Below are positions 29,197 to 34,967 of a stretch of 45,734 nt of DNA, piece by piece. The translations under genes and the position numbers were made by a program. The stretch lies in contig JAGNNA010000002.1 in the NCBI GenBank assembly GCA_017990895.1, positions 1 through 45,734 of the forward strand. Reading direction: 5' to 3'. Origin of the DNA: Reyranella sp. Its GTDB lineage: Bacteria > Pseudomonadota > Alphaproteobacteria > Reyranellales > Reyranellaceae. Every line of letters starts with the position of its first letter. The stretch's first letter is position 1. The notes beneath the pieces are model-generated. The model saw only the letters and a list, made by a program, of their open reading frames with translations. It searched no databases and had not been told where the DNA came from.

Positions 29197-30162
29197 TCAG
29201 TTTATTGGAATCTTGGCGACCCGCACCAGTTCCTTGGTGTCGACGAGCTCGCGAGCGACATAGCCATCGAATGCAGTGGGTGACATCGGAGCCGGTTCGG
29301 CCCCAACTGCGGCGAGCTTCACCATCATGTCAGGCGACTCGAGCGCCTTCACCAGCGGCTTGTTGAGCGCGTCCACAATGGCGTTTGGCGTGCCGGCCGG
29401 GGCGAACATGCCTATCCACGGCTCATAGGAAGAGTTGGCGATCCCCACCTCAACCGTCGTCGGCACGTCCGGAAGCATCCGCGAGCGCTTTGCGGTGCTC
29501 GTCGCCAACGCCACGAGCTTTCCCTCCTTGATCGGGCTCAGAGTGTTGCCAATCGAGATGAAGGCAAAGTCGACGCGTCCTGCCATCACATCGGTCAAAG
29601 CCTCAGGGGTGCCGCGGTAGGGAACGTGCACACCCTCGAAGCCGGCCATTGCCCGGAACTTCTCCGATCCCATATGAAGGGCACTTCCGACTCCGCTCGA
29701 CGCATAAGTGATCTGGCCGGCCTTCGCCTTGGCCAGAGCCAGCAGGTCCTTGACCGACCAAATGTTGCCAGATGGCGCCACAACAAGGATCAGCGGCAGT
29801 GTCGCCAGCATCGTGATGCCGCGAAACTCCTTTGCGGTATCGTACGGCAGGCTACCGTAGAGTGCTGGATTGGCAGTGTGGGCCGACGATACGACCAGCA
29901 GTGTGTAGCCGTCGGGCGGTGCCTTGGCGACCACAGCCGAGCCGAGCGAACCTCCGGCGCCCGGCCGATTATCGACCAGGAAAGGTTGCGAAAGCGCTTC
30001 CCTCAGGCTCTCGGCTGCGAGGCGTGCCACGACGTCAGTGGCACTGCCCGCCGAGATTGGCACCACGACCTTCACTGGCCGCGACGGGTAGTCATTGGCA
30101 CTTGCGGCCTTGGACACCAGGCCGGCCGTGAGCGCGAGGGAGAGGGTACGCCGGCGCATCAT
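29197..30162 (-). CDS. Bug-family solute receptor (TctC-like), selenoprotein operon
   Basis: 321 aa. Signal MMRRRTLSLALTAGLVSKAA cleaved near SAND, then YPSRPVKVVVPISAGSATDV, LVDNRPGAGGSLGS, PYRGTPEALTDVMAGRVDF and the usual C-terminal region. Periplasmic carboxylate-type receptor; ligand unknown. Its ATG overlaps the TGA of the dioxygenase gene (ATGA), so it is the last gene of the operon that includes the UGSC selenoprotein, CoA-transferase and dioxygenase, and could capture the compound they degrade. No TctAB permease is nearby. Confidence 0.93.
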   Translation of the reverse strand: MMRRRTLSLALTAGLVSKAASANDYPSRPVKVVVPISAGSATDVVARLAAESLREALSQPFLVDNRPGAGGSLGSAVVAKAPPDGYTLLVVSSAHTANPALYGSLPYDTAKEFRGITMLATLPLILVVAPSGNIWSVKDLLALAKAKAGQITYASSGVGSALHMGSEKFRAMAGFEGVHVPYRGTPEALTDVMAGRVDFAFISIGNTLSPIKEGKLVALATSTAKRSRMLPDVPTTVEVGIANSSYEPWIGMFAPAGTPNAIVDALNKPLVKALESPDMMVKLAAVGAEPAPMSPTAFDGYVARELVDTKELVRVAKIPIN

Positions 30163-31175
30163 GACTGCACCGCCGGAACGCCACCGCGCGAGCCATTGTT
30201 GAAGCGATCGCCCATGCCCGGCGCAAGTGGGCGCCCCTCGTGCAAGTTGAGCCATAGGCGCAACAGGAGCCGCTTTTCCTCTGGCCGATCGCCATCCCTG
30301 AATGCTGTACGCGTGTGGATCACGGTCCAATTATTGAGGAACTGAATGTCGCCTGGGCGGAAGTCCATGCCGAGGCAGAGATCGGGGCTGACGGCGAGTT
30401 CCTCGACACAACGGATCGCTGCCCACTCGGCGTCCGTCAGCGGTCGTCCCTGCTTCTCGCGCGCCGTCCGGCTCGACTTGGAGTTCAGGCAGCAGCTAAG
30501 CCTGCCTTCGAACAAGCTGTAGACAGGGATGTCGGGGGTCGTTTCGTCGAGGCGGCGCTCGGTACCCTCGCCTCGCGTGTCGTGGGGAAATCCACGGTGC
30601 AGGATGGGCAAGTGCTCCGGATGGTCCCGGACGATGCGCTGGTAGATCGAAATCGCACTGGCGATCATGCTTCGCCCGCCTTCCGGCGACTTGCGCACGC
30701 AGAGCAACCCCACCACATCGCTGGGATCATTATGAGGGTTGGCCGCGGCCGCCGTCGTGTAGAGGCGCGTATTGATGTCCTCGTAGTCGTCGCCCTGGTC
30801 GGCGACATGGGTCATTAGATCGCCACGCTTGTTCTGGTAGACTGGCGCGCCCATGTGCACGCCGATGCCCCAGTAAATCGCCTTGATCGTGTCGAGGTCG
30901 TAGCGGTCGACGGGGATTCCTCGCAACAGGAAGAAGCCGCAACCGTACTCGAGCTGACGGGCCTGCTGGGCCAACCGCTGACCGAACGTCGGGATAGGGA
31001 AATCCCCCGCCGAGTACCCAGGGGGTGCAAGGCCGCGAGACCGCACGGCCTTCACTGCCTCGTCGAGTTCACGCAGGTCGGACGGCGTCAGTTCGTAGAG
31101 CCATTGATCGGCCGACCGATGGTCTTCGGCTTTCCAGGCGAACCGATCAGTTTGGTTGTGCAGCACGGTATCCAT
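30159..31175 (-). CDS. TauD/TfdA-family dioxygenase, selenoprotein operon
   Basis: 338 aa. Iron ligands His148-x-Asp150 (NPHNDPSD) and His287 (WTVIHTRTAF), with Arg306 as likely 2-oxoglutarate contact (LLLRLWLN). The longer N terminus and GEGTERRLDETT-type insert place it with the TauD-like enzymes related to gamma-butyrobetaine/asparagine oxygenases rather than with TfdA itself. ATG 31175 follows GGAGG. 30 bp after the CoA-transferase gene and overlapping the Bug receptor gene by 4 bp. Fe(II)/2-oxoglutarate-dependent hydroxylation of an unknown small molecule. Confidence 0.9.
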   Translation of the reverse strand: MDTVLHNQTDRFAWKAEDHRSADQWLYELTPSDLRELDEAVKAVRSRGLAPPGYSAGDFPIPTFGQRLAQQARQLEYGCGFFLLRGIPVDRYDLDTIKAIYWGIGVHMGAPVYQNKRGDLMTHVADQGDDYEDINTRLYTTAAAANPHNDPSDVVGLLCVRKSPEGGRSMIASAISIYQRIVRDHPEHLPILHRGFPHDTRGEGTERRLDETTPDIPVYSLFEGRLSCCLNSKSSRTAREKQGRPLTDAEWAAIRCVEELAVSPDLCLGMDFRPGDIQFLNNWTVIHTRTAFRDGDRPEEKRLLLRLWLNLHEGRPLAPGMGDRFNNGSRGGVPAVQS

Positions 31176-31205
31176 GCGTTCCTCCAATTCTGCGGCACTA
31201 CAACT

Positions 31206-32438
31206 TCAGATGATGCCGTCCTTGACCAGCCTCTCGAGTTCGTCCGCACCGAGGCCGAGCAGCCCGCCGAGAACTTCTTCGTTATGCTGGCGAGGCAGTG
31301 GTGCCGGGCTGAAATAGCCAGCCTCCGCCTCGCTGAATTTCATCGGGAAGCCGGGGGCGCCAATCTCGGGAAGGACTCCGAGCGTCGGATGCTCGAGCGA
31401 CTGGTACATGCCACGCGTTCGCAGGTGCTGCGACTCGGCCAGTTCCCGGGGCCCGTTGATGGCCGCGGCGACGCCCCCTGCGGCGAGCATCCGCTCGACC
31501 GCCTCGACGGTGGTGCGGTCGGCGGCCCACTCGGCGACCAGGGCATCGACCTGCTCGTTATGGGCCACCCGCCAGTCGAGGCTGCTCCAGTCGGGATCGT
31601 CCGCCAGGTCGAGGCGGTTGAGCGCCTTCAGCACGCCGGACCACTGGCCATCGGTCGCTGCCCCCAGCACCGCCCAGCCGTCCTTGGTGGCGTAAGTGTT
31701 GATCGGCGAAAAGCGCAGGATCCGATTGCCCTGGCGCACCGGCACACCAAGCCGCTCGTACCAGTCTATCGGGTCGTCGAACATCAGGGCAAAGAGGCAG
31801 TCGACCATGGATATGTCGACAAACTGGCCTCGTCCCGTGCGCTCCCGGTCGAGCAGGGCCGCCAGAACGCCCGACATCGCAAACGTGCCGGCGATCGCGT
31901 CGGACAGGGCCGTGCCGGCCTTCATCGGCGGCTGGCCCGGCAGCCCGGTCACACTCATCAGCCCGGCCGCAGCCTGGACCGTGACGTCGTAGGCCTTCAG
32001 CTCGCGGTCCGGACCCGTCGAGCCATAACCGGTGAGCGCACAGTAGACCAGGCGGGGATTCGCAGCCGAGAGAGTCGCGTAGTCGAGCCCGAGACGGGCC
32101 ATCACTCCGACGCTGAAGTTCTCGACCACGATGTCCGCCTTCTCGACCAGTCGAAGGAAGAGCTTCCTGCCTTCTTCCTTCTTGAGATCGAGGGTGATGG
32201 CCTTCTTGCCGCGCGTGCGCTTCAGGTAGTTGACGTTCAGGTCATCCGCGGACTTGCGCTTGAACGAGACGCCTTCGGCGCCCGCATAGGGCGCACCGAG
32301 CGCCACCCGATCGGCGCCCGCCGGCGAGTCGATCCGGATCACCTCCGCCCCAAGTCCGGCCAGGAAAAGCGTCGCCTGCGGCCCCGAGAAGAACTGCGTC
32401 AGGTCGAGGACACGGGTTCCAGCGAGGATGCGGTGCAT
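31206..32438 (-). CDS. CaiB/BaiF-type CoA-transferase, selenoprotein operon
   Basis: 410 aa. Begins MHRILAGTRVLDLTQFFSGP; AEVIRIDSPAGADRV, ENFSVGVMARLGLDY, GYGSTGPDRELKAYD, catalytic Asp180 (ALSDAIAGTF) and the C-terminal RQHNEEVLGGLLGL are all standard for family III CoA-transferases. Starts 14 bp after the stop of the UGSC gene. Indicates that the operon's substrate, or a product, is a carboxylic acid handled as its CoA thioester. Confidence 0.92.
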   Translation of the reverse strand: MHRILAGTRVLDLTQFFSGPQATLFLAGLGAEVIRIDSPAGADRVALGAPYAGAEGVSFKRKSADDLNVNYLKRTRGKKAITLDLKKEEGRKLFLRLVEKADIVVENFSVGVMARLGLDYATLSAANPRLVYCALTGYGSTGPDRELKAYDVTVQAAAGLMSVTGLPGQPPMKAGTALSDAIAGTFAMSGVLAALLDRERTGRGQFVDISMVDCLFALMFDDPIDWYERLGVPVRQGNRILRFSPINTYATKDGWAVLGAATDGQWSGVLKALNRLDLADDPDWSSLDWRVAHNEQVDALVAEWAADRTTVEAVERMLAAGGVAAAINGPRELAESQHLRTRGMYQSLEHPTLGVLPEIGAPGFPMKFSEAEAGYFSPAPLPRQHNEEVLGGLLGLGADELERLVKDGII

Positions 32439-32452
32439 GCCGGTGGTCGCTT

Positions 32453-32992
32453 CTAACGACGGACCAGGAGACGCTTGACCTGCTCGGCCGCCTGACGGGC
32501 TCGATGACGGACCTCGTCATCGGTACAACTCGACAGGGGATGATCGACGACGACCGGCTCGAGACCGGTCATGCCGAGAGCGGCTCGTTGCGTGACGCAC
32601 TCGGTGACGAATTCCCGCGTGACGATGACCGCCGACGGGGTACCCAGGCTTTCCAATTCAATGCCGTCGTGCACACTGCACGATGTACAGGACCCTCAAT
32701 CGCCTATGGCTGTAATGACCACATCGCTGGATGCTGCGATCTGCGCAATCATTTCCGGGTCGGCCGTGTAGGAGAAGCCGCGCTTCACGAAGGTATTGAC
32801 CTGCGAGAAGGCAAACTCCTCGTTCAGGATATCGGCCGTGTAGGTGAGCAGCTTGCCGGCCTTCATCTTCGCATTGTCGAGAACGCCCAGGCGCAGCCCC
32901 CTCAGGTCGGCAACCCGGGGAGCCAGCGGCCGCGCTTCGGCCTGGACGATACCGCGGGGGTCGTAGCCGTAGAGGGGGATGCTGTAGGACAT
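32453..32992 (-). CDS. UGSC-family selenoprotein; in-frame TGA read as selenocysteine (residue 99)
   Basis: 179 codons from ATG 32992 (AAGGAG 7 nt upstream) to the stop at 32453, interrupted only by TGA at 32698-32696. The reading is VVITAIGD-U-GSCTSCSVHDG: Sec99 in the U-G-S-C motif that names this family, giving a U-x2-C (Sec99/Cys102) and an overlapping C-x2-C (Cys102/Cys105). Both sides are well conserved in character: MSYSIPLYGYDPRGIVQ and NAKMKAGKLL before, ELESLGTPSAVIVTREF and HPLSSCTDDEV after. Cytoplasmic, no signal. A hairpin fitting a bacterial SECIS follows the TGA. Standard callers would give two pieces (stop at 32696, or a start at 32674) or none. Function unknown; a redox or reductive role is inferred from the motif, which recalls Sec motifs in the glycine/betaine reductase B component. 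The selA, selB and selC genes are not in the window. Confidence 0.85.
32667..32683 (-). promoter_or_regulatory. Candidate bacterial SECIS hairpin
   Basis: In the mRNA, 12 nt after the UGA, UCGUGCA-GUG-UGCACGA forms a perfect 7-bp stem with a three-base GUG loop; the loop begins 19 nt after the UGA. Bacterial SECIS elements are short stem-loops just inside the coding region with G (often GU) in the apical loop at about this distance. It overlaps codons for SCSVHD. SelB binding is inferred. Confidence 0.7.
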
Positions 32993-33021: not shown

Positions 33022-34140
33022 TCAGAGGAAGCAGGTGCCGTCGATGCAGACCGGGCCGCCGTTCGGCACGGCGCCATCGATCGAGCGGAGAACCGGGCTG
33101 TTGTAATGCCCCCAGCCCGGAATGAACGACGAGAAGCGGCCGGCGGTCCCACCGATGACGAAAAGGTGGATATTGTCGGGCGACGGAACGATCGGAATGT
33201 CGGAATCCAGATCGCGGCGATACCAGCGCGGCAGGTGGCGATTGTAGGCCTTGCCATACTTGTGATTGTGGACGATGCGGCCAAACTTGTTTGTCGCGTA
33301 CATTTGCAGGTAGCAACGCACGTCGTGACGGGTCCAGCCATGCTTGGCGATCGCCTGTGCGTGCTCTGGCGACAGGGCCACGGTACAGTGGCCACTGGCA
33401 CGGGCGTTGTTGTGCACGACGGTCGTCATTGACGAGATGACGTCGTCGAGAATGCCCTCCGGGTCATTCGGCAGGGGGCTGTTGATGTTGTGGTTCGACT
33501 CCGCGCCGATCGCAAAGACCGTCGAGTCCTGCATTCGGTACCCCTTCTCCACATGATACGGAGCCCAGGGGCTGTCTTCCTCGTTCTCGGCAACGCAATA
33601 GCTGTACTTGGCCGGCGTGCCCTGTGTGCTCTTGTCCAGCACCCCAGGCAATGCGCCGCCCACGTTGAGAAGCATCAGTCGAATTGCCCGGCCGATGGTC
33701 GCGTTGGCGCGGTTGCCGGGAGCGAATGCGCCGTGTCCGGCGTTCATCCCGATCTCCTTCCGGACCGGCCCGTTGACCACAACCAGGGGGGCAATGACAT
33801 GTGTCGTTGCCTGGATGGCATTGAGGTTGAAGTGGGGTTCGCACATGGCCCGCATGGCCGCCCGGAGCACCGGAGCGTACAGGGGCAGGCAGCCGGCCAT
33901 CACGGCATTCACCGCGAGCACGCGGCGCGTCAGGTTTCCCCAGCGCGGCGGCACCCTTGCCTCCAGGAAATCGCCGTCGCCGCCCAGGGCCTCGACCATT
34001 GCCTCGACCTTTTCAGGGGTCGGGGGCACCACCGGCAGTCCGTCCGTATACCCGTTGGCGAAGTACCATTCCTGCGGGTCAACGCCATCCAGCGGGATCA
34101 TGTCCCCGCCGACCCGGTCTTGCAGCGCAGTTGACGCCAT
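33022..34140 (-). CDS. Conserved protein of unknown function, partner of the UGSC selenoprotein
   Basis: 372 aa from ATG 34140 (GAGG 8 nt upstream; GTG 34167 and ATG 34101 are alternatives). Cytoplasmic, no signal or membrane segment. Distinct stretches: ANGYTDGLPVVPPTPEKV near the start, GNRANATIGRAIRLMLLNVG in the middle, many His and Asn residues (HNHKYGKAYNRHLPRWYRRD), and a Gly-rich GGTAGRFSSFIPGWGHYNSP before the end. The last residues, PVCIDGTCFL, hold a C-x4-C pair (Cys365/Cys370) that could be redox-active or bind metal. 29 bp upstream of the selenoprotein gene on the same strand, so the two are almost certainly co-expressed. I do not recognise a characterised family. Confidence 0.85.
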   Translation of the reverse strand: MASTALQDRVGGDMIPLDGVDPQEWYFANGYTDGLPVVPPTPEKVEAMVEALGGDGDFLEARVPPRWGNLTRRVLAVNAVMAGCLPLYAPVLRAAMRAMCEPHFNLNAIQATTHVIAPLVVVNGPVRKEIGMNAGHGAFAPGNRANATIGRAIRLMLLNVGGALPGVLDKSTQGTPAKYSYCVAENEEDSPWAPYHVEKGYRMQDSTVFAIGAESNHNINSPLPNDPEGILDDVISSMTTVVHNNARASGHCTVALSPEHAQAIAKHGWTRHDVRCYLQMYATNKFGRIVHNHKYGKAYNRHLPRWYRRDLDSDIPIVPSPDNIHLFVIGGTAGRFSSFIPGWGHYNSPVLRSIDGAVPNGGPVCIDGTCFL

Positions 34141-34204
34141 GCCAGCGGCCTCGCGAAAGCGTTTCACTCCTCGTCGTGCGGTCTGCGCCGCATCGGCTGA
34201 CTAA

Positions 34205-34229: not shown

Positions 34230-34967
34230 TCAACTACTGACATTCTCACGAAACAGATCGATCGCTTGCCTGAACAACTCGAGGCGATAGTGGAGGTCCG
34301 CTGTAACGATCGGCGTGCCCTCCCAGGCAAAATAGGTGCGCCGCACGACGACCGTCGGATGACCGGGGGGAATACCGAGATGCTGCGCAGCCGGCAACGA
34401 CGCCTGACCGCCCTCGATCTCCTGGCGCACGCGATAGGCTCGAATCCGGCGCGCCTTCTCGATCTGGACAATCAGTGGTTCGAGACCGATGTCCCGACGC
34501 GACAACGCCTTGCCGTCCTCGAGACGCATGGCATTGACCGAGTAGAAGGCACGCTCGCCGGGCTCTCCCCGGGAGACCCTTTCGATCACGAACAGCTGTC
34601 CGCCTCTCGCTATGCCGAACAGGGTGGCATAATCGGGAAACCGGCTTGCGCTCACGGCCTTTGCCGACAGGACGCGCGGCTGCTCGAGCAGATTGCGATC
34701 GATGAGGTCTTCGACCGAACGGATAGCCCACGGAGATCTTTCGCGCGGAACGGCGATGACGACAGTGCCCCGCCTTGGCCGGCGCTCGATCAGGCCGTCA
34801 CGCTCCAGTTGGAGAAGGGCAGAGCGCACGGCGTAACGCGACATGCCGAACTCTTCCATCAATTCGCCTTCGGTCGGAACCTTCAGGCTGTAGCGCCGGC
34901 GGGCGATGCGGTCGCGCAGGATGCGCGCCAGTTGGGTCCCGACGGACGCATTCCCGCTCTCTCTCAT
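34230..34967 (-). CDS. GntR-family transcriptional regulator, HutC type (UTRA domain)
   Basis: 245 aa. Winged helix at about 8-75 (LRDRIARRRYSLKVPTEGEL, FGMSRYAVRSALLQLERDGL, RRPRRGTVV), then a UTRA effector domain at about 90-240 with ERVSRGEPGERAFYSVNAM and VVVRRTYFAWEGTPIVTADL. Binds a small effector and releases DNA, usually as a local repressor. Directly upstream of, and in line with, the selenoprotein operon, with the palindrome at 34205 between them; it probably senses the compound taken up by the operon's Bug receptor. Promoter expected within 34968-35173, where I see no clear boxes. Confidence 0.92.
   Translation of the reverse strand: MRESGNASVGTQLARILRDRIARRRYSLKVPTEGELMEEFGMSRYAVRSALLQLERDGLIERRPRRGTVVIAVPRERSPWAIRSVEDLIDRNLLEQPRVLSAKAVSASRFPDYATLFGIARGGQLFVIERVSRGEPGERAFYSVNAMRLEDGKALSRRDIGLEPLIVQIEKARRIRAYRVRQEIEGGQASLPAAQHLGIPPGHPTVVVRRTYFAWEGTPIVTADLHYRLELFRQAIDLFRENVSS

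Follow-up and report, generated by a model that had tools for sequence, protein, structure and literature searches.

A UGSC-family selenoprotein gene and its near-constant partner gene in Reyranella: a candidate two-subunit selenol-dependent reductase

The UGSC gene, its in-frame TGA and the SECIS hairpin

We analyzed a 45,734-nucleotide stretch of DNA from Reyranella sp. (GenBank assembly GCA_017990895.1, contig JAGNNA010000002.1, positions 1 to 45,734; the window). On its minus strand lies a gene of the UGSC selenoprotein family with an in-frame TGA, preceded by a gene of an unnamed family that we call the partner. The main features of the locus are as follows:

32453..32992, minus strand: UGSC selenoprotein gene, 179 amino acids (aa), selenocysteine (Sec) at residue 99, stop codon TAG at 32455-32453
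32696..32698, minus strand: in-frame TGA, Sec codon 99; TGA is kept in close relatives, and others have Cys codons
32667..32683, minus strand: selenocysteine insertion sequence (SECIS) hairpin, stem UCGUGCA/UGCACGA, loop GUG; kept in Sec homologues and degenerate in Cys homologues
33022..34167, minus strand: partner gene, unnamed family, up to 381 aa

The UGSC frame runs from 32992 to 32453 and comprises 98 sense codons, the TGA, 80 further sense codons and TAG. An earlier note on this DNA, made from the letters alone, had read it as a UGSC selenoprotein gene with a well-spaced start, a TGA at 32698-32696 and the junction IGD-U-GSCTSC. On re-reading, coordinates, strand, codon counts and junction all proved exact, and a Shine-Dalgarno-like AAGGAG was found 7 bases upstream of the ATG. 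The family assignment also holds: the read-through protein scores above the cut-offs of both PF24696 (187.3 bits, cut-off 25, residues 11-177) and NF041046, ‘UGSC family (seleno)protein’ (145.6 bits, cut-off 125), and both matches span the TGA. Across 56 aligned UGSC proteins, with Sec read as Cys, D98-U99-G100-S101-C102 is invariant; the UxxCxxC motif of the window protein consists of U99, C102 and C105. Judged by its sequence, the window gene is a genuine member of this already named family. It shares the full-length match, the UGSC motif, a Sec/Cys key position and a downstream SECIS element, and no feature of the protein sets it apart from the other members; the constant partner gene does not appear in the family description that we found. 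UGSC proteins rank among the most abundant selenoproteins of aquatic metagenomes (PMC2398784). The literature that we found gives them no function and mostly lists them as lone thioredoxin-like proteins.

Standard gene finders cut the window gene short at the in-frame UGA, in line with a rival reading by which the TGA is a true stop, with a 98-aa protein made and the remainder a relic, or a sequencing error. Several lines of evidence speak against this. The alignment of hundreds of UGSC homologues continues across the TGA, and in a sample of 80 UGSC loci from named genomes the codon at the Sec position is TGA (68), TGC (12) or TGT (2). The TGA stands at the same place in Reyranella relatives that are 75-85% identical, and because it recurs in numerous assemblies made independently, it is no sequencing error. 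None of the conditions that the earlier note had named as refuting its Sec reading was borne out. When the stretch after the TGA was compared with five close relatives, the differences fell mainly at third codon positions (for one relative, L053, 7/4/34 at codon positions 1/2/3), so the frame after the TGA is under purifying selection at the protein level. The Sec machinery, which the earlier note had proposed to look for, is complete in the genome: selA, selB and the gene for tRNA-Sec (selC) adjoin one another on contig C177 and selD lies on contig C510, all scoring over cut-off (559, 458, 71.5 and 294 bits, respectively). Together with the hairpin described below, these results already refute the true-stop or sequencing-error reading, to which we assign a negligible probability; by its sequence, the window gene is neither a pseudogene nor an artifact of sequencing.

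The same genome carries three further UGSC genes (four in total) with one in-frame TGA apiece. The family is present in 75/76 genomes of the order, with one TGA in every match listed. A strict restriction of Cys forms to genomes without SelB does not hold, as a SelB-like match over cut-off was found in 3/8 of the Cys-form genomes searched.

The earlier note had missed the SECIS hairpin, and an Rfam search at gathering thresholds returned nothing in the window, leaving the hairpin undetected. The element begins 12 nt past the TGA and forms a perfect 7-bp stem closed by a 3-nt loop (UCGUGCA-GUG-UGCACGA); the loop begins 19 nt after the UGA, and the folding energy is –8.8 kcal/mol. It thereby satisfies the published bacterial consensus, which asks for a loop of 3-9 nt with G in the first two loop positions, a stem of 4-16 bp, a distance of 16-37 nt from the UGA and a minimum free energy ≤ –7.5 (PMC13188914). 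A hairpin loop starting with GU was found in 87/87 Sec homologues versus 3/14 Cys homologues. Distinct Sec genes keep on average 6.4 of the 7 stem pairs versus 4.2 expected for synonymous recoding, while the folding energy in Cys genes equals expectation. Compensatory changes occur in L004, a paralogue of the same genome (C-G to G-C, by which Cys105 becomes Trp), and in L095 (G-C to A-U), and they test the hairpin independently of the protein.

The codons for Cys105 and His108 fall within the stem. Both residues are lost in 14/14 Cys forms, and Cys105 is Trp in the L004-type paralogue group, unlike Sec99 and Cys102, which are invariant. Since the two residues are encoded inside the stem, RNA constraint may account for part of their conservation, and the pattern suggests that this conservation is partly set by the hairpin rather than by chemistry. 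The third cysteine of the motif therefore carries less weight. We also considered the loss of Cys105 and His108 as proven catalytic covariation with Sec. The tree holds 2-3 independent Sec/Cys switches, too few for a test, and the claim was dropped because the SECIS constraint explains the pattern equally well.

The partner gene and its neighborhood

The earlier note had also overlooked the obligate gene upstream. A homologue of the partner lies beside UGSC in 76/80 loci, three of the four exceptions being cut by contig ends, and the two families occur in the identical 28/289 alphaproteobacterial genomes. In some genomes both are fused into one protein: the 575-aa frame of L222, which contains a TGA of its own, has UGSC at residues 8-182, followed by the partner from ~207. 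From adjacency, co-occurrence and fusion, we strongly infer that the upstream ~380-aa protein is the second subunit of a two-protein enzyme with UGSC. A UGSC/Unknown_1 fusion, in which a UGSC domain is likewise joined to another conserved domain without assigned function, was reported from ocean metagenomes in 2008 (PMC2398784). Unknown_1 is probably the same as the fused partner seen here. What is new here is the near-constant pairing, and sometimes fusion, of UGSC with one unnamed protein.

Conserved features of the partner include DGLPVVPPT, NAVMAGC (with Cys93) and a C-terminal Cys pair. Translation of the gene may in fact begin at an internal ATG near 34140. No family match was found in Pfam or NCBIfam for the partner or 41 relatives, and a PDB sequence search with the partner gave no match. 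We also considered the partner as a second selenoprotein, three paralogues having been flagged with one TGA each; on reading the regions, this TGA is the natural stop.

Several variants of the arrangement were observed. Fusions are seen at L221:440-2242 and L222:714-2441, with the motif GCUGSCTP, and in L221 a separate second partner gene follows. L212-L220 hold a paralogous operon of UGSC(Trp105), partner and second partner copy, that is, tandem partners after a UGSC with the motif DUGSCSSWSFHD. In six loci (L059, L098, L102, L070, L077 and L089) selB lies upstream of the partner-UGSC pair, adjoining the partner in L098 and L102. The L098 contig is labeled Klebsiella pneumoniae; its selB-partner-UGSC locus groups with Betaproteobacteria, and the record label looks wrong.

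Around the pair, the minus strand of the window carries, in order, a GntR regulator, the partner, UGSC, a CaiB CoA-transferase, a TauD-type dioxygenase and a TctC solute-binding protein. The additional genes are:

34230..34967, minus strand: GntR/UTRA regulator, upstream of the partner (PF00392 and PF07702 above cut-off)
31206..32438, minus strand: class III CoA-transferase of the CaiB family, 14 nt downstream of UGSC (PF02515, 368 bits)
30159..31187, minus strand: TauD/TfdA-type dioxygenase (PF02668, 102.7 bits)
29197..30330, minus strand: TctC-type solute-binding protein (PF03401, 233.7 bits); the start of the open reading frame is probably internal

In 24 loci a homologous CaiB-family cluster recurs in the vicinity of UGSC. 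At other UGSC loci, LysR genes lie divergently upstream, and in Chloroflexota the loci include genes for acyl-CoA dehydrogenase, LUD and amidohydrolase. Thioredoxin reductase (TrxB) genes occur near six Cys-form loci, in L104 directly downstream of UGSC, and TIGR01292 scored above cut-off in the three TrxB members scanned. Overall, the gene context suggests that small organic acids are taken up and degraded through CoA-linked steps.

Predicted fold and relation to GrdB/PrdB

The AlphaFold2 model of UGSC, built from 56 sequences, has a predicted local distance difference test score (pLDDT) of 93. Strand and helix alternate strictly through its five beta-alpha units, and Sec99 is placed at the N-terminal end of helix 100-115, at the edge of the alpha/beta sheet. 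Its VIA-align neighbors have flavodoxin, PurE, LarB and receiver-like folds; among natural proteins in the PDB it matches best (Z 10.9) one chain of the methyl-coenzyme M reductase activation complex. No thioredoxin chain was among the 50 best structural matches. The model thus predicts a flavodoxin/PurE-like alternating alpha/beta fold and does not support the thioredoxin-like fold proposed in print (PMC13188914), although a predicted model does not formally exclude the latter. In this model, invariant or near-invariant residues at all five strand ends probably form one site, whose members, placed by strand position, would be K42, K70, D98-U99, T125/F128 and H151-P152.

The earlier note had pointed to a likeness to the Sec region of glycine/betaine reductase component B. 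GrdB and PrdB (PF07355) are selenoproteins of glycine/betaine and D-proline reductase; GrdB carries a UxxCxxC motif (PMC13188914), and UGSC shares the motif and the strand-Sec-helix layout. We compared UGSC with 16 alphaproteobacterial GRDB-type (PF07355) proteins, most of them with TGA at the motif. This blind profile comparison with hhalign aligned UGSC residues 86-179 and placed the Sec columns in register (P-value 5e–4), with a score of 34.3 versus 13.0 ± 2.4 (maximum 24.5) in 200 column shuffles. With cysteine columns masked the score was 31.8 (shuffles 13.1 ± 2.5), and 22 unrelated families scored 10-24. The likeness is thus borne out as a weak, in-register profile match but not as PF07355 membership, and we read it as a sign of probable distant homology between UGSC and the Sec domain of GrdB/PrdB. 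A PDB sequence search for a GrdB or PrdB structure to compare gave no match.

Like GrdB and PrdB, UGSC would belong to a two-subunit system with a separate partner, and thioredoxin reductase genes lie near some of its loci. It differs in lacking a direct PF07355 match, in a partner without the pyruvoyl-subunit signal (PF09338), in its occurrence in aerobic-type proteobacteria, and in the dispensability of Cys105 (replaced by Trp in one paralogue group and absent from Cys forms). Separately, PF07355 GRDB/PrdB-like genes (L133-L153) were observed in 13/142 alphaproteobacterial genomes; many stop at an in-frame TGA before PxC and are probable unannotated PrdB-like selenoproteins.

A candidate selenol-dependent reductase

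Starting from the Sec encoding, SECIS hairpin, obligate partner and fusion demonstrated above at the sequence level, we suggest that UGSC, decoded at UGA99, and its partner form a two-subunit selenol-dependent reductase of PrdB/GrdB type acting in organic-acid catabolism, a reading that we hold somewhat likelier to be right than wrong. The near-constant partner and the fusions suggest a two-part redox enzyme in the style of glycine and proline reductases. SelB and tRNA-Sec would decode UGA codon 99, directed by the downstream hairpin. The partner would bind or hold a small carboxylic or CoA-linked substrate, whose electron-poor center Sec99 would attack; Cys102 could then resolve the adduct as a selenenylsulfide, and thioredoxin with thioredoxin reductase would re-reduce the Sec99-Cys102 pair, as in PrdB and GrdB. 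Several results weigh against this proposal. The hhalign probability of the UGSC-GRDB match is low (32%), and PF07355 is absent from the 23 families matched by any of 56 UGSC proteins (maximum E-value 10). None of 42 partner proteins matched PF09338 (pyruvoyl GrdE/PrdA) up to an E-value of 1, and a structure search with the partner model (pLDDT 84) returned no convincing known fold. TrxB neighbors were seen beside Cys forms only, and the neighborhoods vary (CoA-transferase/TctC, acyl-CoA dehydrogenase/LUD and aminotransferase sets), so that the substrate is not fixed.

Two other explanations concern what the protein does. UGSC might be a general thiol/selenol oxidoreductase of thioredoxin-like fold, reducing disulfides or peroxides, with the partner as its protein substrate or regulator. 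The published fold proposal favors this; the high-confidence model with its alternating beta-alpha units and flavodoxin-, PurE-, LarB- and receiver-type neighbors does not, and constant pairing with one 380-aa protein amid catabolic gene sets indicates a dedicated enzyme. We regard it as unlikely, at roughly one chance in five. A little less probable still is a non-redox enzyme, e.g. a hydro-lyase or a thioester/CoA-linked lyase, with a metal or Fe-S cluster bound by Sec99 and the cysteines and with a partner that resembles class I fumarases. Class I fumarases are indeed the top Foldseek matches of the partner (E-value 5e–4), the conserved Cys93 and C-terminal Cys pair could suit such a role, and so could the methyl-coenzyme M reductase activation complex match of UGSC. 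However, the TM-scores of the partner (~0.25) and its Z below 8 are background, and natural Sec-to-Cys replacement and TrxB neighbors suit redox chemistry better. Assignments of the partner by fold (fumarase, Toblerone-type or chorismate-mutase-like) were accordingly rejected, their matches being at background level.

More speculatively, UGSC and its partner could represent a third branch among the selenium-dependent reductases of GrdB/PrdB type. This branch would operate in aerobic-type bacteria rather than in classical Stickland fermentation, with a partner without known fold or family, and one genome could hold several paralogous pairs, each for different organic acids; we consider this reading a tentative extension, with the odds somewhat against it. 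Beyond the family assignment, the analysis adds a two-gene system, a fold, a link to GrdB/PrdB and an RNA-constraint reading of the motif. With a constant partner, fusions, a predicted fold unlike the published one and a probable reductant in hand, the function of UGSC proteins is now directly testable.
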